Positions 14,002 to 62,574 of a stretch of DNA of 64,000 nucleotides are shown in pieces. Below the pieces are notes generated by a model, which made no database searches, was not told where the DNA came from, and worked only from the letters and a program-made list of their open reading frames with translations. Every line of letters starts with the position of its first letter. The first letter of the stretch is position 1. The stretch is from contig NZ_JAFKDE010000002.1 in assembly GCF_017255295.1 (NCBI RefSeq), positions 1 to 64,000 on the forward strand, given 5' to 3'. A program made the position numbers and the translations under genes. The DNA is from Nitratireductor aquimarinus (lineage in GTDB: Bacteria; Pseudomonadota; Alphaproteobacteria; Rhizobiales; Rhizobiaceae).

Positions 14002-14031
14002 TTATGCATGGACTCCAAAGTCATTGAACGC

Positions 14032-15309
14032 TCAGTTCCCGAACACGAGGTTGGGAAGGAAAAGGCTGATCTCGGGGAACAGGACCAGCAGCACCACCGC
14101 CGTGAACAGCGGGATGTAGAAGGGCAGCATCGCCTTCACCATCTGGCCGTGCGATATCTTGGCTATGTCCTGCGCGATGAACATCAGCACGCCCACCGGT
14201 GGGGTCGCGCCGCCGATGATCAGGCTGAAGACCAGCAAAACGCCAAAGTGCACCGGATCGATGCCGAACTGCAGGATCACCGGAACGAGGATCGGCGTCA
14301 GCACGATCTCGGCCGAAGAGGCAACCATCAGAAGCCCGACGCCCAGAAGCATCGCCACGATCACGAAGAGCGCGATGACCGGGTTTTCCGAGATGGAGGA
14401 AATGCCGTTTGCAATGGCCATCGGCACCTGCTCGCGCACCATGATCCACGAAAACGCAGACGCAACGGCGATGATGGAGAGGATGCGGGCCGAGCCCAGC
14501 GCCGTGTTCTGGATCGCGCCCCAGATGTCGGCGAGTTTTACATTGCGGTAGAAGAGGCTGAGCAGCAGGCCGTAGAGCACGGCCACGGCCGCCGCCTCGG
14601 TCGGCGAGAAGATGCCGAACAGAATGCCAGCCACGATGATGACCGGGAACATGATGGCCGGGCCGCCGCCCTTGATGGCGGTGGCCAGTTCCGGCATCGT
14701 CGCCCGTTCATAGCGCGGAAAATTGCGTTTGCGCGCATAGAAATAGGTGAACAGCATCTGCGTGCCGATGATCACGAAGCCCGGCAGAATGCCTGCCAGA
14801 AGCAGGCGGCCGATGGAGACATTGGCCAGCGTGCCATAGATCACCAGTGCAACGCTCGGCGGGATCATCGGTCCCACCATGGAAGACGCCACGGTCACGG
14901 CTGCCGAGAAGGGGCCTGGATAGCCTTCCTTCTTCATTGCCGGAATAAGCACCGAGCCCAGTGCGGTCGTGTCTGCGGTGGGCGAGCCCGACATGCCGGA
15001 GAAGATCAGGCTGGCGAAGATGTTCACCTGCGCCAGACCGCCATGGATATGCCCCACCAGCGCCTTTGCCAGAGCGATGATGCGGTCGGTCAGCTTGCAC
15101 GCATTCATCAATTCGCCGGCCAGGAAGAAGAACGGGATGGCCAGGATCAGGAAGGAATTGATCGATGCCGTCATGCGCTGGGTCAGCAGCGCCAGATTGA
15201 TGTCGGCAAAGAAGAAATACACCATGGACGATGCGCCGATGGCGAAGACCAGCGGCAAACCCATGAATAGAAGGACCAGAAGCAGTCCGATAATAGCAAT
15301 TGTCAGCAT
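14032..15309 (-). CDS. dctM: TRAP transporter large permease (DctM family)
   Basis: 425 residues, highly hydrophobic, with the 11-13 membrane spans expected. Family landmarks include SGMSGSPTADTTALGSVLIPAM, cut here to its middle part, and IGGATPPVGVLMFIAQDIAKI near the C-terminus. It forms the sodium-driven permease with DctQ. It starts 15 bases after dctQ and is followed by the creatininase gene. Confidence 0.93.
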   Translation of the reverse strand: MLTIAIIGLLLVLLFMGLPLVFAIGASSMVYFFFADINLALLTQRMTASINSFLILAIPFFFLAGELMNACKLTDRIIALAKALVGHIHGGLAQVNIFASLIFSGMSGSPTADTTALGSVLIPAMKKEGYPGPFSAAVTVASSMVGPMIPPSVALVIYGTLANVSIGRLLLAGILPGFVIIGTQMLFTYFYARKRNFPRYERATMPELATAIKGGGPAIMFPVIIVAGILFGIFSPTEAAAVAVLYGLLLSLFYRNVKLADIWGAIQNTALGSARILSIIAVASAFSWIMVREQVPMAIANGISSISENPVIALFVIVAMLLGVGLLMVASSAEIVLTPILVPVILQFGIDPVHFGVLLVFSLIIGGATPPVGVLMFIAQDIAKISHGQMVKAMLPFYIPLFTAVVLLVLFPEISLFLPNLVFGN

Positions 15310-48344: not shown

Positions 48345-50483
48345 ATGACTTATAGCTTTTTCGATGCGGCTCCGCGCAGCCCGGCGCGTGCCGGTTTGCG
48401 CGGCGCCGTTTCTTCTTCCGGTCGGCTTGCACTGGCTTTTCTGGGCTGTGTCGCCCTGCCGGTGGAGGGCGCGCTGGCACAGGCGGAAAACCAGAAGGTC
48501 ACGCTTCTTGACACACTGGTCGTGACGGCGACCGGCTTCGAGCAGAGTGTGGTGGATGCGCCGGCGAGCATAACCGTGGTGCCGCGCGAGGCGCTGGAAA
48601 AGGGCGTTTACCGCGACCTGACCGACGCGCTTCGCCATGTGCAGGGCGTGGCGGTGACGGGGTCGCCGGGGCGGGAAGACATTTCCATCCGCGGTCTGCC
48701 GGGCGCATACACGCTGATCCTGGTGGATGGAAAGCGGCAGAACACGCGCGAGTCGCGCTCCAATGGCAATTCCGGTTTCGAGCAGAGCTTCCTGCCGCCG
48801 GTGTCCGCCATCGAGCGGATCGAGGTGGTGCGTGGCCCGATGTCGGCGCTCTACGGTTCCGATGCGATGGGCGGTGTCATCAATGTCATCACGCGCAGGG
48901 TGGCCGATGCGTGGACCGGGACGGTCTCGGCCGACGGAACGCTGCAGCAGCATACCGACCATGGCGATGCAGGGAATGCGTCGTTCTACGCCAGCGGGCC
49001 GGTGATGCGCGACATGCTGGGCCTGCAGATCTGGGGGCGCGGTCTTTTGCGCGGCGAAGACCGGATCATGGGCGGCTTGCCGGAAAAGAAGGATCTCGAT
49101 CTCACCGGGCGTCTGACCTTCACCCCGAACGAGGATCATGAGCTGGTTCTTGATGCGGGCAGGACGCGGCTGTTGCGCACGCACACCGAGGACAGAACCA
49201 GCACGCGCCGGGACAATTACGACCGGCTGGACCGCAGGCACTGGTCGCTGAGTCATACGGGGCGCTGGGACTGGACGACATCGGAGGTTTCCCTCTCGCA
49301 GGAATGGGCCGAGCGCACCCGCTTCATGCGCGATGCGGGAACCGGACAATATGCGGAAGATCCGCGTTCGCCGCTGGTTCGCAACACGGTTTTCGACGTG
49401 AAGACGACCACGCCGCTCGATTTTCACGGGGCGCATACGCTGGTGCTGGGCGGGCAGTATCTGGATGCGCTGCTGACCGATCAGAATCCCGGCCGCCGCA
49501 CGGGGCGCGATGAGAAATTCGGCGTTTCGCAATGGGCGCTGTTTGCCGAGGACGAGTGGTGGATCACGCCGGATTTCGCGCTGACCGGCGGCATCCGCAT
49601 GGACAATCACGAGATCTATGGCGCGCAGTTCAGCCCGCGCGCCTATGCGGTGTGGCATGCGACGCCGCAGCTGACGCTGAAGGGCGGTGTCTCGACGGGG
49701 TTCAAGGCTCCGGTCATTCGCGCGATTGCGCCGGGCTACGCCTATGTGACGGGCGGGCGTGGTTGCAGCTATGGACCGGACGGCACCTGTGGCGTGATCA
49801 TCGGCAATCCGGATCTTGAAGCCGAGAAAAGCACCAGCATCGAGATCGGCGGTCTCTGGGACAGTCTCGGCGGCGTGCGGCTGGGCGCAACCTATTTCCG
49901 CAACGACTTCAAGGACAAGATCAGCAATGCGATGATCTACAATCCCGATGGGTCGCATGCTCGCTGGGACGAGGATCCGAATTACCGCCTCTGGCGCTTC
50001 TTCAACATCGGCCGGGCCATCACGCAGGGCGTGGAGCTGACGGGCGAATGGGATGTGCGTGACGATCTGATCCTGCGGGGCAGCTACACCTACACCCATT
50101 CGAAGCAGAAGACCGGCGATTATGCAGGCTTTCCGCTGATGCGCACGCCGCAGCATATGGCCAGCCTGCGCGCGGACTGGACCACGCCGGTCGAGGGGCT
50201 GAGCGCGTGGGGCGAGGTCAGCTATCACGGGTCGGAGGTGAATGCGGGCCTGCGTATCGGCTCCAAAGGCAAGCCGATCCTGTCGAGCGACGGTTCGAAA
50301 GTTCTGGCGCGCAAATACGATGCCTACACCACGGTCGATTTCGGAGCGAACTATGCACTGAACGACAATGTGACCCTGAAGGCGGCGGTCTACAATGTGT
50401 TCGACAAGCGCATTGACGTGGGCGACATCAACACGGTTGTCGAAGGACGCCGTGTGTGGGTCGGCATGACCTCCACTTTCTGA
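48345..50483 (+). CDS. TonB-dependent siderophore receptor (FepA/IrgA-like)
   Basis: 712 residues. N-terminal leader with a hydrophobic run ending in EGALAQAEN, a TonB box candidate VTLLDTLVVTATG, a plug with ISIRGLPGAYTLILVDGKRQ and VRGPMSALYGSDAMGGVINVIT, and a 22-strand barrel that ends in the usual aromatic residue (VGMTSTF). The plug resembles catecholate receptors of the FepA/PfeA/IrgA kind, so a catecholate-type iron siderophore is likely. Carries the ligand across the outer membrane using TonB energy. The IRO-type box upstream suggests iron-dependent repression. It converges with the DUF2218 gene. Confidence 0.93.
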   Translation: MTYSFFDAAPRSPARAGLRGAVSSSGRLALAFLGCVALPVEGALAQAENQKVTLLDTLVVTATGFEQSVVDAPASITVVPREALEKGVYRDLTDALRHVQGVAVTGSPGREDISIRGLPGAYTLILVDGKRQNTRESRSNGNSGFEQSFLPPVSAIERIEVVRGPMSALYGSDAMGGVINVITRRVADAWTGTVSADGTLQQHTDHGDAGNASFYASGPVMRDMLGLQIWGRGLLRGEDRIMGGLPEKKDLDLTGRLTFTPNEDHELVLDAGRTRLLRTHTEDRTSTRRDNYDRLDRRHWSLSHTGRWDWTTSEVSLSQEWAERTRFMRDAGTGQYAEDPRSPLVRNTVFDVKTTTPLDFHGAHTLVLGGQYLDALLTDQNPGRRTGRDEKFGVSQWALFAEDEWWITPDFALTGGIRMDNHEIYGAQFSPRAYAVWHATPQLTLKGGVSTGFKAPVIRAIAPGYAYVTGGRGCSYGPDGTCGVIIGNPDLEAEKSTSIEIGGLWDSLGGVRLGATYFRNDFKDKISNAMIYNPDGSHARWDEDPNYRLWRFFNIGRAITQGVELTGEWDVRDDLILRGSYTYTHSKQKTGDYAGFPLMRTPQHMASLRADWTTPVEGLSAWGEVSYHGSEVNAGLRIGSKGKPILSSDGSKVLARKYDAYTTVDFGANYALNDNVTLKAAVYNVFDKRIDVGDINTVVEGRRVWVGMTSTF

Positions 50484-50513
50484 GCCTCATGACCTTCTCG
50501 CTGACATCCAACG

Positions 50514-50543
50514 CTCCCGCCATCACCACTTCGGTGGCGGGAG
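50514..50543. terminator. Hairpin between converging receptor and DUF2218 genes
   Basis: Perfect 9-bp arms CTCCCGCCA / TGGCGGGAG with a 12-base loop, in the 101-bp gap between converging genes. No T tract on either side, so termination strength is uncertain. Confidence 0.45.
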
Positions 50544-50584
50544 GGGCAAACCGTCATCTGCGGACTTTCAGGGCCCGAAAGCCG

Positions 50585-50866
50585 TCACACGTTCCAGGCG
50601 ATCTGCGGCTTCTCACGCCATGCGAAGCGGGCCAGATGATCGTCGATCACGTGCTGGGCGCGGGCGAGTTCCTCGTCCGTTTTGGCGGCGCACTCGATCG
50701 TCAGCGAGGTTTCATCGGCGCGCATGAGGCAGTCGCCGAAGGGGAAATCAACCTTGCCCTGCGAGGCGTCGTAATCGACCGAAACCTTGTGCGCGAAATG
50801 CTTGCAGAGCTGCTGCAGATATTTCGAGGCATGCTCGGTGGCGATGACGGCTTTGGATTGCAGCAT
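50585..50866 (-). CDS. DUF2218 family small protein
   Basis: 93 residues, no signal peptide. The pattern ASKYLQQLCKHFAHKVSVDYD, then GDCLMRADETSLTIEC, is that of DUF2218. Members are commonly found next to siderophore genes and are thought to be cytoplasmic, possibly linked to siderophore or iron release, but no biochemical role is known to me. It is divergent from the siderophore-binding protein gene; the IRO-type box between them could control both. Confidence 0.85.
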   Translation of the reverse strand: MLQSKAVIATEHASKYLQQLCKHFAHKVSVDYDASQGKVDFPFGDCLMRADETSLTIECAAKTDEELARAQHVIDDHLARFAWREKPQIAWNV

Positions 50867-50927
50867 GGGAAATCTCCAGAAAAGCGGCGGTTGAAACTGA
50901 GTGTTGGAATGTCCGTACAGAAAAGTT

Positions 50928-50942
50928 GATTGTAGAAATCAT
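50928..50942. promoter_or_regulatory. IRO-type box (RirA) in the divergent DUF2218/siderophore ABC promoter
   Basis: TGA-TTGTAGAAA-TCA, matching the TGA-N9-TCA pattern. It is 62 bases from the DUF2218 start and 94 from the binding-protein start, within a 169-bp divergent gap, where one site could repress both operons when iron is plentiful. Confidence 0.55.
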
Positions 50943-51035
50943 ATTTGCTAACCGAAATCCAGACAAGGGCGTTGCCGACCGCGCAAAACGGAAACCGGCA
51001 GGTGGCGTCCACCCGTCATCCCTGACATTTGGAGC

Positions 51036-51974
51036 ATGTCGATGATCACAAGAACGAACTCCCTGACCGCGCGCTTTCTGGCTTCGGCCATCGCGCTTGC
51101 GGCGTTCCTGCCGGGCTACGCCAATGCCGACGAAATCACCGTCAAACATGCGCAGGGCGAAACGGTTCTGCCGGACACGCCCAAGACGGTTCTGACCTTC
51201 GATTTCGCCACGCTCGACACGCTCGACACGCTGGGCGTCGACGTGGCCGGCGTGCCCAACGCGCTGCTTCCCGACTATCTGTCGAAATACAAGAGCGACG
51301 ATTACGCCAAGGTCGGCTCGCTGTTCGAGCCGGACTTCGAGGTGGTGAATGCCGCCAGGCCCGACCTGATCATCGTCGCGGGCCGCTCGGCCAAGCAGTA
51401 TGAGGCGCTTTCCAAGATTGCGCCGACCATCGACCTGACGGTCGCACAGGATGACTTCCTCAACAGCGCGGAAGACAATGCGCGCAAGCTGGGCGTGATC
51501 TTCGACCGTGAAGAGAAGGCCGAGGAACTTATCGAGAGGCTCAACACCTCCGTTGCAGCGCTGCGCGAGACGGCGAAGGATGCCGGCAAAGGCCTGATCA
51601 TCCTCACCAATGGCGGCAAGGTTTCGGCCTATGGTCCGGGCTCGCGCTTCGGCTGGCTGCATGACGATCTCGGCGTGATCCCTGCTGTCGAGAATGTGCA
51701 GGAGGCGACCCATGGCGAGGCGGTTTCGTTCGAATTTCTCCTGAAGACAAATCCGGACTGGCTGTTCGTGGTGGACCGGGATTCGGCCATCGGCAGTGAA
51801 GGCCAGTCGGCAAAGCAGACGCTGGACAATGAACTCGTCGCAGCGACCACGGCCGCGAAGGAAGGCAATATCTACTATGCCGATTCCGTGCGCTGGTATC
51901 TGGTCGGCGGCGGCATGACTGCCCTCCAGGCAGAAGTCGACGCGCTCTCCAAGGCGCTCACACCAGTCGACTGA
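51036..51974 (+). CDS. Siderophore ABC transporter substrate-binding protein (CeuE/YclQ/FatB type)
   Basis: 312 residues. Sec signal (ALAAFLPGYANAD) without a lipobox, so a free periplasmic protein. Type III binding fold: ITVKHAQGETVLPDTPKTVLTFD, then PDLIIVAGRSAKQYEAL, then a long helix. Residues of the petrobactin/enterobactin receptor family are recognisable in TNGGKVSAYGPGSRFGWLHDDLG. Captures the ferric siderophore delivered by the receptor. First gene of a four-gene importer with two permeases and an ATPase. Confidence 0.92.
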   Translation: MSMITRTNSLTARFLASAIALAAFLPGYANADEITVKHAQGETVLPDTPKTVLTFDFATLDTLDTLGVDVAGVPNALLPDYLSKYKSDDYAKVGSLFEPDFEVVNAARPDLIIVAGRSAKQYEALSKIAPTIDLTVAQDDFLNSAEDNARKLGVIFDREEKAEELIERLNTSVAALRETAKDAGKGLIILTNGGKVSAYGPGSRFGWLHDDLGVIPAVENVQEATHGEAVSFEFLLKTNPDWLFVVDRDSAIGSEGQSAKQTLDNELVAATTAAKEGNIYYADSVRWYLVGGGMTALQAEVDALSKALTPVD

Positions 51975-51981
51975 CAAGGCT

Positions 51982-52983
51982 ATGCAAGCTGCCGCCAGCA
52001 TGCCCCAACGTATCTACCCCGCCGCCGGCCTCGTGCTGGCGGTGGGCGTGGTGATCGTTCTCGCTGCAATCAGCCTTTTCATCGGCGTGGCCGACATGCC
52101 GCTCGGCGATCTTTTGAGCGGTGACGGCAACGCACAGGCCATGCAGCTTCTGCTCGTCAGCCGCATTCCGCGCACCCTGGCGCTGGTGCTTTCGGGCATG
52201 GCGATGGGCGTTGCGGCGCTGATCATGCAGATGCTGTTTCGCAACCGTTTCGTTGAACCGACAACGACCGGCACGGTCGAGGCGGCGAGCCTTGGTCTTC
52301 TGGCGGTGGCGCTGTTCGCGCCCGGCCTGCCGATGCTTTCCAAGATGGCGGTGGCATCGGTTTTCGCGCTGACCGCAACCTTCCTGTTCCTGCGGCTTGT
52401 GTCGAAGATCCCGGCAAGCTCCAGCCTGGTCGTGCCGCTTCTGGGCCTGATGTTCGGCGGCGTGATCAACGCCATGACGACCTTCGTCGCCTATCGCTAC
52501 GATCTTCTGCAATCGCTTTCTGCCTGGACGAATGGTGACTTTTCAAGCGTCTTGCGGGGGCGCTACGAACTGTTGTGGATCGCGGGCGGGCTGGCGCTGC
52601 TTGCCTATGTGGCGGCGGACCGGTTCACGGTCGCCGGGCTTGGCGAAAGTTTTACGCGCAATCTCGGTCTGAACTACGGGCGCATCCTCGCCTTCGGCCT
52701 CGTCATCGTTTCCATGGTTTCGGCGACGGCAGTGGTGACGGCGGGTACGGTGCCCTTTCTGGGGCTGATCGTCGCCAATGTGGTGAGCATGACGGTGGGC
52801 GACAATCTGCGCCGTGCGCTGCCCTGGGTGGCGGTGTCGGGCGCGGGCTTCCTGCTTGCCTGCGACATTGTCGGCCGTACGCTGCGGTTTCCCTATGAGA
52901 TCCCGGTGGGAACGGTGGCAGGCGTGCTCGGTTCGGGCATTTTCCTTTATCTCCTTTTGCGGCGGCGGGCGCGTTTTGGCTAA
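51982..52983 (+). CDS. Siderophore ABC transporter permease 1 (FecCD family)
   Basis: 333 residues, about ten hydrophobic spans. FecCD family features: RIPRTLALVLSGMAMGVAALIMQ and GTVPFLGLIVANVVSMTVGDNLRRALP. An alternative ATG at 52003 would give a slightly shorter, equally plausible N-terminus. It starts seven bases after the binding protein. Forms the heterodimeric channel with the next permease. Confidence 0.92.
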   Translation: MQAAASMPQRIYPAAGLVLAVGVVIVLAAISLFIGVADMPLGDLLSGDGNAQAMQLLLVSRIPRTLALVLSGMAMGVAALIMQMLFRNRFVEPTTTGTVEAASLGLLAVALFAPGLPMLSKMAVASVFALTATFLFLRLVSKIPASSSLVVPLLGLMFGGVINAMTTFVAYRYDLLQSLSAWTNGDFSSVLRGRYELLWIAGGLALLAYVAADRFTVAGLGESFTRNLGLNYGRILAFGLVIVSMVSATAVVTAGTVPFLGLIVANVVSMTVGDNLRRALPWVAVSGAGFLLACDIVGRTLRFPYEIPVGTVAGVLGSGIFLYLLLRRRARFG

Positions 52984-53944
52984 AAATCCGACATGGCGGC
53001 GGCCCCGCGTGGCGCTTGTCGTTCTGGCGTTTGGCGCCATTGCGGCGGCACTGGCCTTCATGACCATTGGCGTGAAGGGCAACTGGGATTTCGTGCTGCC
53101 GTTTCGCAGCGCCAAGCTGCTCGGCCTCGTGCTGGTGGCCTATGCGGTGGCGACGGCGACGGTGCTGTTTCAGACGGTGACGCAGAACCGCATTCTGACG
53201 CCCGCGGTGATGGGCTTCGATTCCCTCTATGTGGCCCTGCAGACGGCGCTGGTGTTCTTTCTGGGCACGCGCGATCTCGCCAGCGTGGACATGCGGTTGC
53301 GTTTCGTTCTGGAGACGCTGCTCATGGTGGGCATGTCCATGGCGCTCTTCTACTGGCTGTTTCTCAGCCGCCAGCGCAGCCTGCATCTCGTCGTGCTCGC
53401 CGGTGTGGTGTGCGGCGTCTTCTTCCGCAGCCTGGCGCACATGATGCAGCGCATTCTCGATCCCAACGAGTTCATCGCGCTTCAGGACATGCTGTTCGCC
53501 AGCTTCAACAGCATCGACCAGCAATTGCTGGCGGTGTCGGCAGTGATCGTTCTGGCGACCGCCTTTGTGAGCCGGCGGCTTCTGACGAAGCTCGACGTGC
53601 TGGCGCTTGGCCGCGATGTGGCGATCAATCTGGGCATTGATTATCAGCGCGTGGTGCTGCTGCTGTTCGCCATGATCGCGGTTCTGGTTTCGGTCTCGAC
53701 GGCGCTTGTCGGCCCGATCACCTTCTTCGGTCTGCTGGTCGCCAATCTCGCCTATCAGGCCGTGGGCACGGACCGGCACAAATACACGCTGCCGGCGGCG
53801 ACGCTGCTTGCCATCATTGCGCTTGTGGGCGGGCAGACCGTGCTGGAGCGCGTATTCGGTTTCGACACGGCGCTCAGCATCATCATCGAATTCACCGGCG
53901 GCATTGCCTTCATGCTGCTGCTTTATCGGAACCTCAGGCGATGA
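52976..53944 (+). CDS. Siderophore ABC transporter permease 2 (FecCD family)
   Basis: 322 residues, about nine or ten hydrophobic spans; TALVGPITFFGLLVANLAYQ is the family gate motif. The frame runs back to 52814 within the preceding permease gene, but the natural start seems to be a TTG at 52976, so the two genes overlap by eight bases (TTGGCTAA). No ATG is available before the first span, and the stretch upstream of TTG is out-of-frame shadow sequence. The stop overlaps the ATPase start by four bases. Confidence 0.9.
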   Translation: MAKNPTWRRPRVALVVLAFGAIAAALAFMTIGVKGNWDFVLPFRSAKLLGLVLVAYAVATATVLFQTVTQNRILTPAVMGFDSLYVALQTALVFFLGTRDLASVDMRLRFVLETLLMVGMSMALFYWLFLSRQRSLHLVVLAGVVCGVFFRSLAHMMQRILDPNEFIALQDMLFASFNSIDQQLLAVSAVIVLATAFVSRRLLTKLDVLALGRDVAINLGIDYQRVVLLLFAMIAVLVSVSTALVGPITFFGLLVANLAYQAVGTDRHKYTLPAATLLAIIALVGGQTVLERVFGFDTALSIIIEFTGGIAFMLLLYRNLRR

Positions 53945-54699
53945 TCGACATCCACAATCTCACCAAGACCTATGACGATGCGACGGTGGTTGACGATGTC
54001 AGCCTGTCGCTTCCCGAGAGCGGCATCACCGCGATTGTCGGCCCGAACGGGGCGGGCAAGTCGACTCTTCTTTCCATGATTGCGCGCCTGATCGCGCCGA
54101 CTTCGGGGCGGGTTCTGGTGGATGGTCTGGATGTGCAGGAAACGCCGGGCGCGGTGCTGGCCAAGCGGCTGGCGATCCTGAAGCAGAACAACCAGGTGGG
54201 CATGCGCCTGACGGTGAGCGAGCTGGTGGCGTTTGGCCGGTTTCCGCATTCGGGCGGGCGACCGACCGTGGAAGACGAGCGCCATATCGGCGAGGCCATT
54301 TCCTATCTGGGGCTCGATGCTCTGCGCGGGCGGTTTCTGGACGAGCTTTCGGGCGGTCAGCGCCAGCGCGCCTTCGTGGCAATGGTTCTGGCGCAGGACA
54401 CGAAATATGTGCTGCTGGACGAGCCGCTCAACAGCCTCGACATGAAACACGCGGCGGCGATGATGAAGCTGTTACGGCGCACGGCGGACGACCTGAAGAA
54501 GTCGATTACCGTGGTGATCCACGACATCAACTTCGCCTCGATCTATGCCGATCACGTGGTGGCGATGCGCGACGGACGCGTGGTGCTGCAGGGCGAGGCC
54601 GGTGACCTGATGCAGGAAGCGGTGCTTGAGGACATCTATGACACCGTCGTGCAGGTGCGCGAGGTGGAGGGGCATCTTCTGGGGCTGCATTATCTGTAG
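53941..54699 (+). CDS. Siderophore ABC transporter ATP-binding protein (FecE/CeuD type)
   Basis: 252 residues. Walker A GPNGAGKSTLL (about residues 34-44), ABC signature LSGGQRQRAF (about 138), Walker B KYVLLDEPLNSLD and the switch His in VVIHDINFA. Start overlaps the permease stop (ATGA). Energises ferric siderophore import into the cytoplasm. Last gene of the importer; the next gene starts 125 bases on. Confidence 0.93.
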   Translation: MIDIHNLTKTYDDATVVDDVSLSLPESGITAIVGPNGAGKSTLLSMIARLIAPTSGRVLVDGLDVQETPGAVLAKRLAILKQNNQVGMRLTVSELVAFGRFPHSGGRPTVEDERHIGEAISYLGLDALRGRFLDELSGGQRQRAFVAMVLAQDTKYVLLDEPLNSLDMKHAAAMMKLLRRTADDLKKSITVVIHDINFASIYADHVVAMRDGRVVLQGEAGDLMQEAVLEDIYDTVVQVREVEGHLLGLHYL

Positions 54700-54824
54700 A
54701 GCCCGGCATCTGCAGAGCCTGCGGAGTGGAGAAACCGTTCAATTGCGGAATTTATTCTCAACTAACCGTCAATGTTTGTGATAAACACTGGTGCAAAACA
54801 AACTTGTGAGGGGGCACAAGGCTT
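54700..54824. other. 125-bp intergenic region before the redox cluster
   Basis: Lower GC than neighbours around 54750-54800. Contains a short inverted repeat TGTTT-GTGAT-AAACA (54773-54787) and a GAGGGGG ribosome-binding candidate (54808-54814). No clear terminator for the siderophore operon, so read-through into the redox cluster is possible. Confidence 0.35.
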
Positions 54825-56483
54825 TTGGCGCACCAGAGGCAATCAAAACGCGTGGCTCGCGTTATTTGCGATCAGGCGAGGGTCGCGAAAAGGGCTTTTT
54901 TCTTAGCGTTTATAAGTACTTCGCTTTCAGTTTCGGCCGTATCGGCCAATCCGAATTCCATTGATTTTGCGATGCAGTATCTGGCGGACCTGCGTGATTC
55001 GCCGGAATGCGCAGTTACGGTGGACGGGGAAGGGCGCTTCGACTTCGGGCCGGAGATAAGCAATCCGTCCATGAGCTGTCCGGATGCTTTCGCCTGGAAG
55101 ATTTTCACCGAGGCGGTGCGCGGCGAATTCTGGTCGCGCTGGACGACCGATGTGCAGATGTGGCCGACCGCGCCATGGCCGGTGTGCGAGCCCGGCCAGA
55201 CGGAAAACTGCTGCAGCACGGTCGAAGTTTCCAACAATCCCGATCCCGAACACTGCCCCGTGCGCCCCGACCCGGCGCTGGGCATGCCCGCACACACACC
55301 GCATGAGCCGAGCAAGGCGCATCAGGTGTCGATGGAGGATGCGGCCAAGACCGACCGGGATGGTGACGGCAGCATCGACTGGGATGACGTGCCGCCGGAA
55401 CTCAAGACCGCAGTGATCGGCGCGGAGCAGGTGGAGCTGGTTTATCACAACCGGCCTATGACCGATTACATCTTCGCAAACGGGCTCTATCACACGGACG
55501 GGCTTGGCCGGGTTTTTCAGACACGTGCAGGCGTCATGGAGCACTATGCGCCATACAATGGCGTGGCCGGCACGGGACCTCTCAGCCAGATCGACCTGCC
55601 GATCCGCTCGCTCATGCTCAAGGCGAACCTGCTCGACATCCGCAAGGCGAAAGAGCTGGGCATCGATCTTGAAAAGAACGCCGACTACATCACGCTCGAT
55701 TTGCCGAAGGGCGGCAACACGCCGGAGACCGGCACTTATATCCTTCTGTCCTTTCACATCTCCTCGAAGGATCTGCCCAACTGGTTCTGGACCACATTCG
55801 AGCATGTGGACAATCAGGGCCGCTGCGACTGGATCGGCTGCAATGACAGTTTCGGTTATGTGGCGAAGGTGAGCGACGGCCCGGTGGCGCGGGACGATCT
55901 GCCCGAGCCGGCAGACAATTACGTGTCGCCGAACCAGCTGGAAATGGCGGACGGCGCCGTGGTCGCATTCGATCTTGCCCGGACCTATGACGCCGACAGC
56001 GAGATGCGCGACGGGCTGGCGGCGGTGTTCAGGACGCTCGGCATCGGAACCGGAGCGGCCAATGAGAGCGGCACGCCGAGGCCCGCCGATCCGGCCTGGC
56101 GCAACTATCGCCTCAAGGGCAGCCAGACGAATTTCGTGACGCCCACGGGCCGGCCGACGCAGCTCGGCAATTCGGTGACGGAAGCCGGCTTCACCAATTC
56201 CAGCTCCTGCATCAGCTGCCATGCGCGCGCATCGGTGACCGAGAAGGGGTTACCGAACTTATCGATCTTCGTGAGCGATCTGAGTGACGCCGGCCTGCCC
56301 AAAAGCACCAATGGCGTGCCGGCGCCGAGCTGGTTCACCACCAGCGCCTATTACGGCGTCGGCGACCAGGTTCTGGCGCCGGGGCTGGTGGCGGTTCAGA
56401 CGGATTTCGTCTGGGGATTCCGCAATGCCTGCCCGATCGAGGTGGGCGCACAGGGCCCGCACCGCTGCGCAAAGAAAGACTGA
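54825..56483 (+). CDS. Exported protein with one CxxCH haem motif and an EF-hand-like loop, function unknown
   Basis: 552 residues from a TTG start; a GTG at 54852 is an alternative and gives a cleaner signal peptide (FFLAFISTSLSVSAVSANP). Seen in the mature part: several Cys in the first 130 residues including an NCC pair, an EF-hand/dockerin-like loop DRDGDGSIDWDD at residues 177-188, and a single c-type haem site SCISCHAR with Cys462, Cys465 and His466. The middle has no domain I recognise (WFWTTFEHVDNQGRCDW is distinctive). A periplasmic haem protein with a probable calcium loop. It heads the redox cluster, 71 bases before the multicopper oxidase, so it may be its electron donor or the substrate-binding partner. 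Confidence 0.8.
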   Translation: MAHQRQSKRVARVICDQARVAKRAFFLAFISTSLSVSAVSANPNSIDFAMQYLADLRDSPECAVTVDGEGRFDFGPEISNPSMSCPDAFAWKIFTEAVRGEFWSRWTTDVQMWPTAPWPVCEPGQTENCCSTVEVSNNPDPEHCPVRPDPALGMPAHTPHEPSKAHQVSMEDAAKTDRDGDGSIDWDDVPPELKTAVIGAEQVELVYHNRPMTDYIFANGLYHTDGLGRVFQTRAGVMEHYAPYNGVAGTGPLSQIDLPIRSLMLKANLLDIRKAKELGIDLEKNADYITLDLPKGGNTPETGTYILLSFHISSKDLPNWFWTTFEHVDNQGRCDWIGCNDSFGYVAKVSDGPVARDDLPEPADNYVSPNQLEMADGAVVAFDLARTYDADSEMRDGLAAVFRTLGIGTGAANESGTPRPADPAWRNYRLKGSQTNFVTPTGRPTQLGNSVTEAGFTNSSSCISCHARASVTEKGLPNLSIFVSDLSDAGLPKSTNGVPAPSWFTTSAYYGVGDQVLAPGLVAVQTDFVWGFRNACPIEVGAQGPHRCAKKD

Positions 56484-56554
56484 ATGCGGCGCGCGGTCTG
56501 CGCGCTGGCGGCAAGAAACATACGAACTGATTGAAGCAAGGCAGGATGTTGCAC

Positions 56555-58099
56555 ATGCAGATGAACCGGCGTGCCCTCCTTTTCGGTTCCACGGCTCTGG
56601 CGACCGTGGCGGCGCTGGCCGTGTTGCGGCCGGACCATGCGGCAGTGGCCGAGGGCAAGGACGATCCGCGGCTCGTGCCGGCGCGCTCGCCGCTCGGCAT
56701 GGAAGGCGATCTGAAGAACCCGCGCGAAATCCACTCCATTGACGGGCGATTCCAGACGGACTTGACGATGAAGATCACCCGTCAGGATCTGCCTTATGCG
56801 AGCGCGGAGCTCAGGCTTTATGAAGGGGAGATCCCGGGACCGACCTTTCGTGTGTCGCCGGGCGACGAGATGGAGATCGCGCTCCATAACCGGATGCCGC
56901 CCAACCGCGACCACGACCCGGTGACCAACACGCCGAACCAGTTCAACTCGACCAATCTGCATTTCCACGGTTTCCATGTGAGCCCCAAGGGCAACAGCGA
57001 CAACGTCTATCTGCAGATCAATCCGGGCGAGAGCTTCAACTATCTGGTTCAGCTTCCGGAGGATCATCCGGCGGGCAATTACTGGTATCACCCGCACAGG
57101 CATGGCTCGGTGGCGGTGCAGGTGGCTTCGGGCTGCGGCGGCATGATGATCGTGCGCGGCACGCTGGATGACGTGCCGGAGGTGGCTGAAGCCATCGAGC
57201 GCGTGATGGTGTTCCAGTGCCCGGTGGTGGATCCGACAAGCGGCGAGCTCGACAGCTTTGACACGATCTGGAACCTGGATTCGGAACGCTACTGGCTGGT
57301 GAATGGCGAATATCAGCCGCGCATCTATATGCGCGAAGGCGAGGTGCAGCACTGGCGCTGGCTGAATGCGGGCGATGAGCAGTTCCTGCCGATGACGCTG
57401 GACGGTCTGGACCTGTTCGAGATCGGTTTCGACGGCAACCCTTATGATTTCGCGCGGAAAACCGACCGCATCTTCATCGCGCCGGGCAACAGGTCGAACG
57501 TGATGGTGCGGGCACCTAAAGTGGGCGTCTACGAGCTGATCCGCCCTGCCTTCTCGCAGGGCAAGACGGCGCTTCCGGAAGTGCGCATGGCGCAGGTCGT
57601 GGTGCTGCCGGCGGATACGGACCGGATCGGGCCGGACGTGAAGATGGGCACGCGCATTCCCGAGGAAGAGCTGCCCGACAACAAGATCCTGACCGACATC
57701 ACCGATGAGGAAATCTCAAAACGCCAGCAGATCGTGCTCGGCGTGACCGACACGCCCGGCATGTACAAGGACACGGTGTTCACGCTCAACGGAAAGCCGT
57801 TCGATCCCTCGCGCGACGACATCGTGGCCAGTCTGGGGACGGCGGAAGAGTGGGAGTTCGTCAACACGACCCCGTTCCCGCACCCGATCCATGTGCATGT
57901 GAACCCGATGCAGGTGACGCACATCAATGGCGAGGAGCTGGCTTACAAGCACTGGCAGGACACGATCGCCGTGCCGGCTGCGGGGTCGGCCACGGTGCGC
58001 ATGCGCTTCACCGAGTTCGACGGCCGCTTCGTCATGCACTGCCATATCCTTCCACACGAAGACCTGGGGATGATGCTCAATGTCAATATCAAGGCTTAG
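56555..58099 (+). CDS. Tat-exported multicopper oxidase
   Basis: About 514 residues. A twin-arginine signal (MNRRALLFGSTALATVAALA) directs folded, copper-loaded export. All four copper-ligand motifs are present: LHFHGFHV, WYHPHRHGS, HPIHVHVNP and the type 1/3 motif HCHILPHEDLGMM, so type 1, 2 and 3 sites should be complete. Three cupredoxin domains fit CueO/laccase-like enzymes, but the long Met-rich insert of CueO is absent, which argues against dedicated Cu(I) oxidation. The frame is open from a TTG at 56531; the ATG at 56555 or 56561 is preferred for the signal. The stop overlaps the cytochrome start. Confidence 0.92.
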   Translation: MQMNRRALLFGSTALATVAALAVLRPDHAAVAEGKDDPRLVPARSPLGMEGDLKNPREIHSIDGRFQTDLTMKITRQDLPYASAELRLYEGEIPGPTFRVSPGDEMEIALHNRMPPNRDHDPVTNTPNQFNSTNLHFHGFHVSPKGNSDNVYLQINPGESFNYLVQLPEDHPAGNYWYHPHRHGSVAVQVASGCGGMMIVRGTLDDVPEVAEAIERVMVFQCPVVDPTSGELDSFDTIWNLDSERYWLVNGEYQPRIYMREGEVQHWRWLNAGDEQFLPMTLDGLDLFEIGFDGNPYDFARKTDRIFIAPGNRSNVMVRAPKVGVYELIRPAFSQGKTALPEVRMAQVVVLPADTDRIGPDVKMGTRIPEEELPDNKILTDITDEEISKRQQIVLGVTDTPGMYKDTVFTLNGKPFDPSRDDIVASLGTAEEWEFVNTTPFPHPIHVHVNPMQVTHINGEELAYKHWQDTIAVPAAGSATVRMRFTEFDGRFVMHCHILPHEDLGMMLNVNIKA

Positions 58100-58385
58100 C
58101 CTCGCAGCACTGCTCCTGATGCCGTTCGCTGCCCAGGCGCAGGACAACAACGCCGTTCCGAAACAGGCGTCGGGCTGCGTCTCGTGTCATTCGGCGGATG
58201 GAAATCCGCTGGTGGAAGGGGTGCCGATCCTTTCGGGCCAGCGGTCCGACTATCTGGAGGCCGCACTCAAGGCCTATCGCGAGGGCCGCCGCACCGGCGG
58301 GCCGGCCGATGTGATGCGCTTCTACACCAAGGAACTGAGCGACGAGGACATCAAGGAGATTTCGGAATGGTTCGCACAAAACTGA
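58080..58385 (+). CDS. Small periplasmic class I cytochrome c
   Basis: 101 residues. Sec signal (SLAALLLMPFAAQAQ), haem site SGCVSCHS at Cys33, Cys36, His37, and a likely axial Met in PADVMRFYTKELSDEDI near residue 80. Cytochrome c553-like: a one-electron carrier between the flavoprotein dehydrogenase and an acceptor. Starts inside the 3' end of the oxidase gene and ends 19 bases inside the next gene, so all three are tightly coupled. Weak own ribosome-binding site. Confidence 0.9.
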   Translation: MSISRLSLAALLLMPFAAQAQDNNAVPKQASGCVSCHSADGNPLVEGVPILSGQRSDYLEAALKAYREGRRTGGPADVMRFYTKELSDEDIKEISEWFAQN

Positions 58386-59062
58386 TCGCGCTGGCCGTTG
58401 CCGCGCTCTGCGCAACGCCGACACTTGCCGCTGAGGATCTCCTCTACCTGACGAGCGAGCAGGGCGAGGAGCGCCTGCTCGACGCCGACCTCAACCGCGA
58501 CTATTTCAGCCTCGCCACCTATGTGGAGAGCGAGCAGATCCTGACCTTCTGCGGGCCGGCGACCGTGGCGGCGGTGGCCAATGCGCTGGGCATTCCGCGG
58601 CCTTCGCCCGACCGGCTCTATCCGTGGACGCTGTTCACGCAGGACACGCTGTTCAACGAGGCCAACCAGAAGCTGAAACCCTATGCGATGGTGGAGCATG
58701 AGGGGCTGACGCTGGCGGAGCTCGACACGTTCATCGAGAACACGGGGCTTGCGGCGGAACACCATTTTGCCGACGAGACATCCGTTGATGAACTGCGCAC
58801 GGCGATCCGGGAAACGCTTGAGGACCGCGATGCGCGCTTCATCGCAAACTATTCGCGCAAGGCGCTGCCCCAGGAAGGCGACGGGCACATTTCGCCCATC
58901 GGCGCTTATGACGAGGAGACCGACAGCGTTCTGATCCTCGATGTGGCGAAATACAAATATCCGCCGGTGTGGATCAGCGTCGAGAAGCTGCATGCGGCGA
59001 TGATGATGGTGGACGAGGGGTCCAACCGCTCGCGCGGTTTCGTCAAGGTGTCGGTCCAGTGA
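58367..59062 (+). CDS. Exported phytochelatin synthase-like papain-fold enzyme
   Basis: 231 residues with a Sec signal (LIALAVAALCATPTLAAED). Phytochelatin synthase family catalytic triad: Cys62 in TFCGPATVAAV, His174 in GDGHISPIGAYD and Asp192 in VLILDVAKYKYPP. The His-Asp distance of 18 equals that of plant enzymes (His162, Asp180). Only the catalytic half exists, as in cyanobacterial homologues of about 240 residues that mainly hydrolyse glutathione. Export is odd, since glutathione is mostly cytoplasmic, so a periplasmic thiol peptide or another glycine-terminal substrate is possible. It overlaps the cytochrome before it by 19 bases and the next gene by four (GTGA). Confidence 0.9.
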   Translation: MVRTKLIALAVAALCATPTLAAEDLLYLTSEQGEERLLDADLNRDYFSLATYVESEQILTFCGPATVAAVANALGIPRPSPDRLYPWTLFTQDTLFNEANQKLKPYAMVEHEGLTLAELDTFIENTGLAAEHHFADETSVDELRTAIRETLEDRDARFIANYSRKALPQEGDGHISPIGAYDEETDSVLILDVAKYKYPPVWISVEKLHAAMMMVDEGSNRSRGFVKVSVQ

Positions 59063-59541
59063 CGGGGCCGCGCCTTTCCCGCCGCGCCTTCCTGATCGGA
59101 AGCTGCTGCGCCATGGCGCTTACGCCCGTGGCGTCCGTGGCGCAGGCGGCGCGTCTGGGCTCCGCCTATGACGACACGGTCTGGGAGGGGCTGGTCTCGG
59201 CCATTGCTGGCCCGGTGAAGACGCCGCAGATCCTGCGTGATGCGCTGAAGCGCGATTTCACCAAGACGTTCGGCGTGCCGGCGCGGCAGGATCTGGTGAC
59301 CCATTTCGGCCGCGCGGGCATCGCCACGGTGCTTGATGCGCAGGAGGGGGACCGGGAAGAGCAGGTGCGCTGGATCGCCGCCTATCTGTTCACCGGCTCG
59401 GCCGACCCCGCCGATAAGGACGCGCCGATGATCAATTATCCATACGCGCTGGGATGGAAGTCGCTGAGCTTTGCCAAAGCGCCGGGCCTGTGCTCGGGGC
59501 CGGAGTTCGGCTATTGGCTCAATCCGTGGGAGGCAGCATGA
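59059..59541 (+). CDS. Tat-exported small subunit of a membrane GMC dehydrogenase
   Basis: 160 residues from a GTG overlapping the previous stop (GTGA). A twin-arginine signal (LSRRAFLIGSCCAMALTP) and a helical mature part that ends in MINYPYALGWKSLSFAKAPG and a Trp-rich tail. It resembles the small subunit of sorbitol/gluconate/fructose-type FAD dehydrogenases, which carries the signal for the co-folded large subunit. The large-subunit gene starts four bases inside this one, matching that pairing. It should let the FAD enzyme ride through Tat. Confidence 0.82.
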   Translation: MTGPRLSRRAFLIGSCCAMALTPVASVAQAARLGSAYDDTVWEGLVSAIAGPVKTPQILRDALKRDFTKTFGVPARQDLVTHFGRAGIATVLDAQEGDREEQVRWIAAYLFTGSADPADKDAPMINYPYALGWKSLSFAKAPGLCSGPEFGYWLNPWEAA

Positions 59542-61145
59542 GCGACCTGCACGCCGATATCGTGATCGTCGGGTCCGGCATGGCGGGGGCGCATCTTTCG
59601 CGCAGCCTCGCTGAAGCGGGACGCGACGTTCTTGTTCTGGAAGCCGGCGACAGCAAGCCGCGTTCGGAATATCTCGCCGATTTCTACGCCAATCCGGTGA
59701 AGGGTCCGCAGGCCCCCTATCCAAGCCAGGATTGGGCGCCGCACCCGACCGATACGGATTATGACGCGTTTTACGATCAGGCGGGGCCGGTGCGTTTCGT
59801 CGGTGCGTATCTGCGCATCTATGGCGGCACGACGTGGCACTGGACGGGCTTTGCCGACCGGTTGCGGCCCAATGACTTCAAGAGCGCCACGCTTTATGGC
59901 CGGGGCGCGGACTGGCCGATCACCTATGACGAGCTGATCCCCTATTACGAGCAGGCGGAAGCGCGCTGGGGTGTTTCGGGCGACCCGGACTTCACATGGG
60001 GCGCGCCGCGCAAGCCGGGCGAAGGCTACACGATGCCGCCCATTCCCGCCTCCTATATGGATTTACAGATTCAGAAGGCGCTGGATCAGATGGGGCTCAC
60101 CTCCAAGCGCTTCTCGCATGCGCGCAACTCGGTGATCTTCGACAACCGGCCAGCCTGCTGCGGCAACAATACCTGCGTGCCGATCTGCCCCATCGGGGCG
60201 AAATACGACGCCTCGTTCGACATGGACAAGGCGGTGGCGGCTGGCGCACGCATTGAACTGCGCGCGCTTGTGACCTTCATTGAAATCGGGGCCGACCAGA
60301 AGGTCGTGTCGCTGACGATCCGCCGCCCGGACGGCGCGACGCAGAAGGTGACCGGCAATATCTTCGTTCTGGGCGGGCACGCCATCGAGAACCCGCGCCT
60401 CATGCTGAATTCCAAGCAGGAAACTGCGCCTGACGGGGTTGGCAACGCGCATGACCAGGTGGGGCGTTACCTCCTGTCGCAGTACAATATCGACGTGTCC
60501 GGCACGGTGACGGATCCGGTCTATCCCTATCGCGGGCCGCAGCAGACCTCCGGCATCATCGAGTATCGCGATGGCGATTTCCGCAAGGAATATGCGGCCT
60601 TCGGCACGTCGTTCATGAACAATGGCTGGAGCGGCAATTCGGATGCAGAGAAGCTCTCGCGTGAGCTGATCGGCAAGGGCATGCGCGGGGCGGAGCTGGT
60701 CAACACGCTCAACGCGCAGATTTCGCGCCATGTGCGGCTCAACTCCTCGGCGGAAACGCTGGGCGTGCCGGAGAACCGCGTTACGCTTTCCGACAAGATG
60801 GACACGTCCGGCGTGCCGCGCCCGCGCATCAACTTCACGGTCGATGATTACACGCAGGCTGGCATCACCGTGGCGCGGGAGGTGAACCAGAAGGTGCTCG
60901 GCCTGATGGGGGCGAAGGACATCAAGGAAGATACGCCCTATCTCTCCAACGCCATCATCGCCGGCACCACACGCATGGGAACCGACCCGAAGCGTTCGGT
61001 CGTGGGGCCGGATCTGAAGACGCACCAGCACCCGAACCTTTATATACTTGGCACCTCGACCCATGTGAGCGCGCCGGTCAACGCGCCGTCGCTGACCATC
61101 GCCGCCATGGGCATCCGGCTGGCCGAGCACCTGAACAAGGGCTGA
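59538..61145 (+). CDS. GMC-family FAD/Fe-S dehydrogenase large subunit (gluconate/sorbitol DH-like)
   Basis: 535 residues, no own signal (exported with the small subunit by inference). FAD loop VIVGSGMAGAHLSRSLAEAG at the N-terminus. A Cys-rich segment CCGNNTCVPICPIGAKYD around residues 207-223 (Cys207, 208, 213, 217) is the hallmark of the FAD-GDH/gluconate dehydrogenase branch, where it holds a 3Fe-4S cluster. C-terminal GTTRMGTDP and NAPSLTIAAMGIRLAEHL complete the GMC fold. Oxidises a sugar, polyol or similar alcohol in the periplasm and likely hands electrons to the cytochrome c encoded at 58080. Start overlaps the small-subunit stop (ATGA). Confidence 0.92.
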   Translation: MSDLHADIVIVGSGMAGAHLSRSLAEAGRDVLVLEAGDSKPRSEYLADFYANPVKGPQAPYPSQDWAPHPTDTDYDAFYDQAGPVRFVGAYLRIYGGTTWHWTGFADRLRPNDFKSATLYGRGADWPITYDELIPYYEQAEARWGVSGDPDFTWGAPRKPGEGYTMPPIPASYMDLQIQKALDQMGLTSKRFSHARNSVIFDNRPACCGNNTCVPICPIGAKYDASFDMDKAVAAGARIELRALVTFIEIGADQKVVSLTIRRPDGATQKVTGNIFVLGGHAIENPRLMLNSKQETAPDGVGNAHDQVGRYLLSQYNIDVSGTVTDPVYPYRGPQQTSGIIEYRDGDFRKEYAAFGTSFMNNGWSGNSDAEKLSRELIGKGMRGAELVNTLNAQISRHVRLNSSAETLGVPENRVTLSDKMDTSGVPRPRINFTVDDYTQAGITVAREVNQKVLGLMGAKDIKEDTPYLSNAIIAGTTRMGTDPKRSVVGPDLKTHQHPNLYILGTSTHVSAPVNAPSLTIAAMGIRLAEHLNKG

Positions 61146-61152
61146 AACCTGC

Positions 61153-62574
61153 ATGAACAAGGCCGCGCTGCCGTTGCTGCTTCTCCTGGTGCTGCTCGGC
61201 AACGGGCTGCGTTCGGTGGTCAGCTCCACCGTGTTCGTCTCGGAAGGGACGTTTGCGAGCTTTCTGAAAATTTCCGTCAACAAGACCTCGGTGATCATCG
61301 AGCTGCTTCTGGGCGCGGTGCTTCTGTCGCTTCTGATCACGCCACGGCTGATCCAGCGCTTTCCGGCACGGCCGCTGGCGGCTGCGATGTGTCTCATCGC
61401 GGGGGTCTCCAGCCTTGGGCTGGCGGTGCTTTTCTGGGTTGCGCCGCCGGTCGCAACGCGTGAGGCGCTGGTGGTGGTGCTGTTTCCACTGATCGGCTTT
61501 TCGCTGGCGGCGCTCGCGCCCATTGCACAAATGATGACCGTGTGGGGCGGCGAGCGGCATTCCAAGCTTTTGACGGGTGTGTGGGCGGTGGCCATGCCGG
61601 CGGCGTTTCTGGTCACGCCGCAACTCGTCCGGGTGATTGCGCCGCGCTATGGGCTGGACATCTTCTTTGCCGGCTTCGCCATGGTGCCTTTCCTGCTGAT
61701 GCTGGGCCTCTGGATGGTGCGCGAACCCGTGAAGGAAACGGCGGGCGAGGCAGGGGAAGAGAAGGCCGCCAGCTTCGCGCTTCTTCCGGTTCTTGCCGTG
61801 TTGATCACCTTCGAGGCGGTGACAACGCTGGTGTCGCTCTCGGGCATCAGTGCGCCGGAAACGCAGATTGCGGCCGGGTTGTTTGCGGCGAGCCTTGCCT
61901 ATCTCATCGTGCGGGCACGGCGGGGAAGGGCTGCGGAACAGGCTCCGCGAGCGCCCGTGGAAGGGGCGACGCTTGGCGTGTTCGCCTTCCTCTTTTTCGT
62001 CAATGTGGCGACCACGGGCTTTTACGACACCGCCTATCTGGTGAAGCACATGTGCTCCAACACGCTGATCGCCGACCGGGCAACGATTGGCGCGCTGGCG
62101 CAGGTGGTAGCGGCCATGGGAGCGACGGCGATCCTGGCGCGCATGCCGATCCAGCGGGCGCTGATGCTCGCCGGCGCGGTGATCACGGCGGCGGGCCTCG
62201 GCTCCTATATGCTGTATTTCGGCTTTCCCTATTACGAGGTCTATCTGGGGTCGAAGGCGCTCACCGGTTTCGGCACGGGGCTGCTGACAACGGCTGCCGT
62301 TTTTGCGGTCACCGGCGCGGCCGGCAAGAACGCGCATCTGTCGCTCTTCATCGCCTTCGTGATCATCGTGGGAACGGAAGTGGGGCTGGAACTCTTCGAG
62401 ATCCTGATACAGGTGATGGAGATGCTGAGCTTTGCGCCTGACGCGGTCTATTCCAGCGTTTTCGTGTTGCAGGCCGTTCTGGTGGTGGTGGCGATGCCGT
62501 TCCTTTTTGCGAAAGAGGCATCGCCCGACGCCATTGCGGCGGAAGGTGCGAAAAGCCCGACCGCGCAGCAATGA
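61153..62574 (+). CDS. MFS-type transporter of unknown substrate
   Basis: 473 residues with about twelve hydrophobic spans and a central cytoplasmic loop (REPVKETAGEAGEEK). It starts with NKAALPLLLLLVLLGNGLRS; the A-motif between spans 2 and 3 is poorly conserved, so family assignment inside MFS is open. It is eight bases after the GMC gene, so part of the redox operon. It may import the product or substrate of the dehydrogenase, or export a metal-binding thiol. It converges with the aminotransferase gene. Confidence 0.85.
   Translation: MNKAALPLLLLLVLLGNGLRSVVSSTVFVSEGTFASFLKISVNKTSVIIELLLGAVLLSLLITPRLIQRFPARPLAAAMCLIAGVSSLGLAVLFWVAPPVATREALVVVLFPLIGFSLAALAPIAQMMTVWGGERHSKLLTGVWAVAMPAAFLVTPQLVRVIAPRYGLDIFFAGFAMVPFLLMLGLWMVREPVKETAGEAGEEKAASFALLPVLAVLITFEAVTTLVSLSGISAPETQIAAGLFAASLAYLIVRARRGRAAEQAPRAPVEGATLGVFAFLFFVNVATTGFYDTAYLVKHMCSNTLIADRATIGALAQVVAAMGATAILARMPIQRALMLAGAVITAAGLGSYMLYFGFPYYEVYLGSKALTGFGTGLLTTAAVFAVTGAAGKNAHLSLFIAFVIIVGTEVGLELFEILIQVMEMLSFAPDAVYSSVFVLQAVLVVVAMPFLFAKEASPDAIAAEGAKSPTAQQ

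Follow-up and report, generated by a model that had tools for sequence, protein, structure and literature searches.

Three kinds of described enzyme come closest to the genes considered here. The first comprises the flavin adenine dinucleotide (FAD)-dependent glucose dehydrogenase of Burkholderia cepacia (BcGDH) and the fructose dehydrogenase of Gluconobacter, members of the glucose-methanol-choline (GMC) family, for which the available portion of PMC6719666 gives a catalytic pair, His476/Asn519, a histidine that binds FAD, His105, and export of the large subunit by way of the small one. The second is the phytochelatin synthase (PCS) of Nostoc, Alr0975 or NsPCS, with its plant counterpart AtPCS1; in the accessible part of PMC3855540, AtPCS1 Gln50, NsPCS Gln64, and papain Gln19 form the oxyanion hole, an Arg/Lys pair is placed at the second-substrate cavity of the plant and Nostoc enzymes, and the AtPCS1 variants Q50A and Q50N have very low and no activity, respectively. 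The third is the three-domain multicopper oxidases (MCOs) Thermus laccase and CueO. We describe here an operon that encodes relatives of all three together, found in a 64,000-nucleotide stretch of Nitratireductor aquimarinus DNA (the window; contig NZ_JAFKDE010000002.1, G000:C2:1-64000 within a 4.57 Mb assembly). The operon is real, and its conserved unit is the six genes at 56555-62574, which encode an MCO, a small cytochrome c, a PCS-like enzyme, the small and large subunits of a GMC enzyme, and a major facilitator superfamily (MFS) transporter. We refer to this unit as the cassette. The features of the locus are as follows.

54825..56483, plus strand, mono-heme c-type cytochrome of an unnamed family (one CXXCH), adjoining the cassette and not a member of it
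56555..58099, plus strand, MCO (laccase/CueO-like; Pfam Cu-oxidase_2/_3/_1) with a signal like those of the twin-arginine translocation (Tat) pathway, first cassette gene
58080..58385, plus strand, small mono-heme cytochrome c (PF00034) with a Sec-like signal
58367..59062, plus strand, PCS-like enzyme (C83 papain fold; PF05023; triad Cys62-His174-Asp192) with a Sec-like signal
58532..58534, plus strand, Glu56 codon, at the oxyanion-hole Gln position of the PCS (alignment)
59059..59541, plus strand, Tat-type small (hitchhiker) subunit of the GMC enzyme (position, Tat-like RR motif, alignment)
59538..61145, plus strand, FAD/3Fe-4S GMC large subunit without the catalytic His/Asn of its family (homology to BcGDH and fructose dehydrogenase)
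60954..60956, plus strand, Ile473 codon, at the catalytic His position (BcGDH His476; alignment)
61062..61064, plus strand, His509 codon, new invariant His of the GMC clade and candidate relocated base (alignment)
61083..61085, plus strand, Ala516 codon, at the catalytic Asn position (BcGDH Asn519; alignment, in which Asn falls one residue earlier)
61153..62574, plus strand, MFS-fold transporter (fold model, Foldseek), last cassette gene

As the coordinates show, seven plus-strand genes follow one another at 54825-62574, just as the original prediction had described them. Its statement that most of them overlap by 4-20 bases holds for four of the six junctions (MCO/cytochrome c, -20; cytochrome c/PCS, -19; PCS/small subunit, -4; small subunit/GMC, -4) and fails for the 71-base gap between the end of the 54825 gene and the start of the MCO gene and for the GMC/MFS junction (+7). 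Export signals, which we judged by eye rather than with a predictor, are Tat-like on the MCO and the small subunit and Sec-like on cytochrome c and the PCS, with none on the GMC large subunit; the picture of a largely exported redox set is supported. A scan of 54600-56700 returned no sigma-70-type promoter site against 0.6 expected by chance, which is uninformative on transcription.

Counting the window, 19 distinct loci carry the cassette with its gene order unchanged; two of these loci are incomplete. A species-level scan, with one genome per species and an alignment of three PCS sequences as the query, gave 16 PCS loci. The cassette, with order and strand unchanged, is present at 14 of these, and at 12 of the 14 all six genes are intact by tblastn. 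In L063, a Comamonadaceae metagenome-assembled genome (MAG), the contig ends inside the GMC gene, and in L054 (Alloyangia mangrovi) the transporter match is split over two frames (12833-14213), being either interrupted or misassembled. Additional copies come from genomes G159, G744, and G1071 and from a Salipiger plasmid (L051); L119 coincides with L061, and L022 with L059, and each pair was counted once. The plasmid genes are annotated as multicopper oxidase, c-type cytochrome, phytochelatin synthase, sugar dehydrogenase complex small subunit, GMC oxidoreductase, and hypothetical protein. The hosts fall in Hyphomicrobiales (named in the records as Nitratireductor, Chelativorans, Rhizobium, and Agrobacterium), Rhodobacterales (Roseobacteraceae or Paracoccaceae), and the one Comamonadaceae MAG. 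Apart from the window, 18 loci have six of its seven genes in conserved order, so the association is more than chance. Conservation beyond close relatives, which the original prediction had named as a check, is therefore found for the six genes and fails for the 54825 gene; in Chelativorans genome G340, of the same family, the six are present in identical order and the first gene is absent. The 4-base PCS/small subunit overlap is itself kept in 17 of 18 loci.

The limits of the cassette are sharp. Clustering of the flanks of 18 loci, with open reading frames called by a simple home-made method, placed any flanking family in at most six loci and at differing positions, and the 19 flanking proteins that were scanned belong to unrelated families only and give no functional clue. 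The cassette is rare among genomes: a GMC of its type was found in at least 3 of 345 genomes of a family sample (one of them, G1276, being the genome of L061), at least 3 of 289 of a class sample, and at least 3 of 398 of a phylum sample. These samples overlap, each includes the window's own genome, and the tallies are lower bounds because the searches scored 3-5 candidates per genome. Such a GMC was found in none of the five congeners in the family sample.

Within these limits the genes have diverged together. Protein distances for the six genes over 17 loci correlate in 15 of 15 gene pairs (Mantel r 0.927-0.972); locus L118 was added after this test and the trees described below and stands outside both. 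The window copy is 83% identical in GMC and 80-82% in MCO to the Rhodobacterales loci L053 and L060, and 64% and 58% identical, respectively, to that of Chelativorans, a member of the window's own family. The simplest reading, which rests on these comparisons rather than on a species tree, is horizontal transfer of the cassette as a unit, because the window copy is nearer to Rhodobacterales than to Chelativorans, one copy is plasmid-borne, the genes co-diverge, and the flanks differ. We regard it as almost certain that the six genes make up one functional unit.

Two partial relatives of the cassette were also found. In the first, variant B, which lies at L078:9219-17354 (genome G483) and L079:1869-9924 (G505), a cassette-type GMC (60% and 58%) occurs together with the small subunit, PCS (38%), cytochrome c, and transporter (27%), without an MCO; the GMC is followed directly by a protein distantly related to that of 54825, and a secreted protein of ~510 residues with no Pfam match is also encoded. 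The parts of variant B in G565 and G607 are spread over two contigs. In the second, two Mesorhizobium loci (L064:8288-8971 and L065:10001-10684) carry a PCS of the cassette clade, with the other cassette genes not nearby.

The large subunit is a clear member of the GMC family, as evidenced by its C-terminal domain (56.7 bits, cut-off 24.6) and by nearly full-length matches to the B. cepacia glucose dehydrogenase (E 3.9e-114) and fructose dehydrogenase (E 2.1e-96). Like these enzymes, the cassette GMCs keep the covalent-FAD His motif, WHW, and the Fe-S cysteine motif, CCGNNTCVPICP, from which the cofactors are predicted; a Tat hitchhiker subunit and, likely, a c-type cytochrome partner are also shared. 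Unlike them, the catalytic His/Asn pair is replaced by Ile/Ala in all 22 system GMCs whose sequence extends to this site (18 cassette and 4 variant B; the L063 protein stops short of the active site). The Asn position is Ala in 19/19 system GMCs against Asn in 7/7 relatives, and three more system copies share this motif. Among 11 other GMC relatives, nine keep the His, and Asn was checked and kept in seven of these; the two His-less ones come from Skermanella, where the gene for each lies between those for a small subunit and an MCO. A new histidine, His509, is present in 22/22 system GMCs, in none of the seven His-keeping relatives, and in neither Skermanella enzyme, and about 40 further positions are invariant in the system GMCs and absent from the seven relatives. 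In the GMC tree, loss of the His/Asn pair is one change (split support 98). The small subunit has a Tat-like RR motif; the window copy has no Pfam match, and 2 of 10 aligned relatives match PF12318 (FAD-SLDH). The known complexes also differ in their partners, in that a 101-residue cytochrome with one CXXCH and an MCO replace the multiheme cytochrome c subunit, which is not found in the cassette, and a PCS and a transporter are added.

The PCS-like enzyme shows a second substitution at a catalytic position. It matches PF05023 at 192.7 bits (cut-off 24.9), is the sole such match in its genome, and aligns with Nostoc Alr0975 (E 2.4e-42), with which it shares the fold family, the Cys-His-Asp triad, the cavity Arg and Lys, and the lack of a C-terminal regulatory domain. 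The triad, which agrees with the original call of a catalytic-triad papain-fold enzyme, is retained in 25/25 system-type PCS (19 cassette, 4 variant B, and 2 Mesorhizobium), as are the Arg and Lys of the second-substrate cavity. In contrast to the Nostoc enzyme, the cassette PCS has a Sec-like signal, an oxidative operon context, and Glu in the oxyanion hole. This Glu is found in 25/25 system-type PCS, whereas Gln is found in 17/17 standalone PCS, and the position is one of only four that fully separate the two groups (24 versus 17 PCS rows). The count was made without the PCS of G594 and the plasmid hits H2-H30; the distant PCS of L023-L027 likewise lie outside it and the tree, four of them having Gln by eye and L024 missing the site. 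In the PCS tree the Gln-to-Glu switch is one change, with a split support of only 86. None of the 17 standalone PCS loci carries an MCO, cytochrome c, small subunit, or GMC gene within the stretch fetched.

The MCO has three Pfam domains over cut-off and finds its nearest solved relative in Thermus laccase (E 3e-55). All four copper-ligand motifs of Thermus laccase and CueO are common to it, and the type 1 and trinuclear motifs are retained in 18/18 aligned cassette copies, L118 lying outside the alignment. Its difference from both lies in being encoded with a GMC dehydrogenase and a cytochrome c, and in a score of 117.2 bits against the NCBIfam CueO equivalog, far under the cut-off of 525, which places it outside the CueO type. 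The small cytochrome matches PF00034 at 31.8 bits (cut-off 21.3) and has its CXXCH and a downstream Met in 22/22 aligned copies. On Skermanella plasmids, small subunit-GMC-MCO operons lie at L103:7355-11229 and L107:5328-9205, beside glyoxylate carboligase genes; their GMC belongs to a sister clade that is also without the His/Asn pair, and the MCO gene adjoins it. These operons are unlike the cassette in that no gene for a PCS, a cytochrome c, or an MFS protein is annotated alongside. Finally, the transporter matches MFS_1 only below cut-off (25.6 versus 33.4 bits), and a profile search against solved structures gave no match. Its AlphaFold2 model has a mean predicted local distance difference test score (pLDDT) of 78.6, and the top seven Foldseek rows are the efflux pumps EfpA, EmrB, and MHAS2168 at 12-15% identity.

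We propose, at a probability of roughly 45%, that this co-inherited, horizontally moving cassette encodes a periplasmic, O2-terminated oxidation pathway. The MFS protein would carry a small compound over the inner membrane, probably outward, and the PCS-like cysteine enzyme would act on a compound of the γ-glutamyl-cysteine type, such as glutathione or a glutathione conjugate. The GMC enzyme, exported with its Tat hitchhiker, would transfer electrons from the PCS product, or from a compound accompanying it, to FAD without using the family His/Asn pair and pass them on through its 3Fe-4S cluster; the small cytochrome c would then deliver them to the MCO, which would reduce O2 to water. A route from flavin through 3Fe-4S, heme, and copper to O2 is plausible since the cofactor motifs of the MCO and cytochrome c are intact, and the recurrence of an MCO beside a related GMC in the two Skermanella operons lends it support. 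Judging from gene content, electrons probably do flow from GMC to cytochrome c to MCO, and the chain of these proteins that the original prediction put forward would thus be refined by the loss of the GMC His/Asn pair. A substrate of the γ-glutamyl-thiol type is suggested by the retained cavity residues of the PCS, and we put it at slightly less than an even chance. Glutathione is synthesized in the cytosol, with which a transporter in the cassette fits. We would not expect every one of these steps to prove correct together.

A more specific version is that the PCS and GMC were re-tooled jointly and, with cytochrome c and the MCO, oxidize a glutathione-derived compound by O2; this is tentative, and we think it rather doubtful. 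The Glu oxyanion hole of the PCS might then do more than, or something other than, peptide cleavage, for example hydrolysis through a thioimidate. A Gln19Glu mutant of papain has reportedly been engineered into a nitrile hydratase that works through such an intermediate. In the GMC enzyme, the base might have moved to His509 or, with a thiol, hemithioacetal, or amine as substrate, might be unneeded.

Several observations weigh against the proposed pathway. According to the available part of PMC4764322, papain variants changed at position 19 are still active, so Glu56 may change little and need not mean new chemistry, although the near or complete inactivity reported for AtPCS1 Q50A and Q50N points the other way. 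The perfect residue counts represent one event each rather than repeated evolution, given the single change per tree, and both the PCS and GMC trees were made by a quick method and carry long-branch warnings. Variant B has no MCO, so the oxidase is not needed by every member, and neither Mesorhizobium genome has a cassette-type GMC at E 1e-60. The Foldseek list of the transporter also holds importers, and the direction of transport rests on weak fold matches.

The extent of the unit bears on the proposal as well, since the 54825 protein had been counted as a heme/EF-hand member of the operon. The heme part stands, a single CXXCH being conserved in 9/9 aligned relatives. The EF-hand-like loop lies in an insert that, of nine aligned relatives, the window copy alone has, and is rejected as a meaningful feature. 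Core membership is rejected too, as the gene is missing at other cassette loci, is broken in L052, and has its nearest relatives off-cassette. Among the loci of the species-scan flank survey, it occurs elsewhere only in L052 (a Nitratireductor MAG and the nearest relative), where its beginning and end read in different frames and the part between them is lost (L052:6192-6727). Relatives are present in 2 of 240 genomes of the class and 4 of 151 of the family, counts that include the window's own genome, and in 37 plasmid records. The protein has no Pfam or NCBIfam match, and no Pfam match was found for 9/9 family members; a family profile search against solved structures gave none, and a single-sequence structure model (mean pLDDT 34.2) is uninformative. 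In its own clade the gene seems to stand alone, and in one member, L009, the scanned neighbors are a DUF2254 protein, a phytase-like protein, RuvB, and a thioesterase. A relative on a Paracoccus denitrificans PD1222 plasmid (L100:4392-9407) stands in a row with a tyrosinase and an unknown protein. On an Azospirillum ramasamyi plasmid (L099:7875-11716), a 54825-type cytochrome directly precedes a small subunit and a GMC that keeps its His.

A role for the 54825 cytochrome as a functional seventh component in the window organism, and as the protein that actually accepts electrons from the GMC, is unlikely. The 54825 family may nonetheless serve GMC enzymes as an electron acceptor, because of the Azospirillum ramasamyi arrangement, and in favor of a seventh member, distant relatives directly follow the cassette-type GMC in variant B (L078, L079, and L112) and another lies beside cytochrome c in L074. 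Against this, the window protein is closer to four relatives away from the cassette (37-39% identity) than to those of variant B (21%), its copy is broken in the nearest relative, and it is set apart by 71 bases where other junctions mostly overlap.

An ordinary FAD-dependent sugar or alcohol dehydrogenase complex, in which the multiheme cytochrome has been swapped for cytochrome c and the MCO and the PCS has a side role such as thiol housekeeping, is also improbable. By similarity, the GMC and small subunit fall in that family, related operons have the order small subunit-GMC-cytochrome, and Skermanella has its MCO version without a PCS and near glyoxylate genes. However, the loss of the base pair in 22/22 system copies, together with the ~40 clade-specific invariant positions, argues against such an enzyme, and the PCS co-diverges as tightly as the other genes and has a residue switch of its own. 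Less likely again is copper or heavy-metal tolerance, with the MCO oxidizing Cu(I) and the PCS making metal-binding thiol peptides in the periplasm. CueO is among the MCO relatives, and PCS is the phytochelatin enzyme of plants, but the CueO cut-off is widely missed, the nearest solved MCO is a laccase, and the oxyanion Gln that AtPCS1 requires is lost. The scan of 19 flanking proteins named neither a metal pump nor a metal regulator, and the GMC, small subunit, and cytochrome would be left without a role.

Just before the operon, 48345-54699 of the window encodes a catecholate-type TonB receptor, a binding protein, two permeases, and an ATPase; between receptor and binding protein lies a 93-residue minus-strand open reading frame (50585-50866), whose product we take to be DUF2218-like. 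The receptor, binding protein, and permease have matches at 0 of 17 other loci (flanks of at most 10 kb, shorter at contig ends, 6.2 kb for L052; loci other than L094, L095, and L118), so the siderophore or metallophore link raised in the original prediction is rejected as a conserved feature, and the importer is no part of the cassette. Metallophore maturation or degradation is thus very improbable: the operon follows an importer in the window, and pyoverdine is said to be matured in the periplasm by a copper enzyme, but importer matches are missing even in the nearest relative, and no biosynthetic core gene was seen beside any of these loci.

A literature search found no title, paper, or description of an operon with this gene set, in line with the original prediction, although its coverage was partial and absence is unproven. 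The operon is conserved, mobile, and apparently undescribed, with known families arranged around a modified FAD/3Fe-4S dehydrogenase complex. To our knowledge, many bacteria have periplasmic PCS-like proteins, the role of which has yet to be settled. Here such a protein is locked into a mobile operon with a flavo-iron-sulfur dehydrogenase and an O2-reducing copper enzyme, which makes that role testable; as the set is movable as one ~6 kb piece, a direct gain-of-function test is possible. If the proposed pathway is true, the GMC clade would provide a natural example of a glucose-methanol-choline enzyme that lacks the His/Asn pair, and electrons would pass from substrate to oxygen by a short private route through GMC, cytochrome c, and MCO. 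The two catalytic switches mean that the cassette may perform a reaction so far undescribed.

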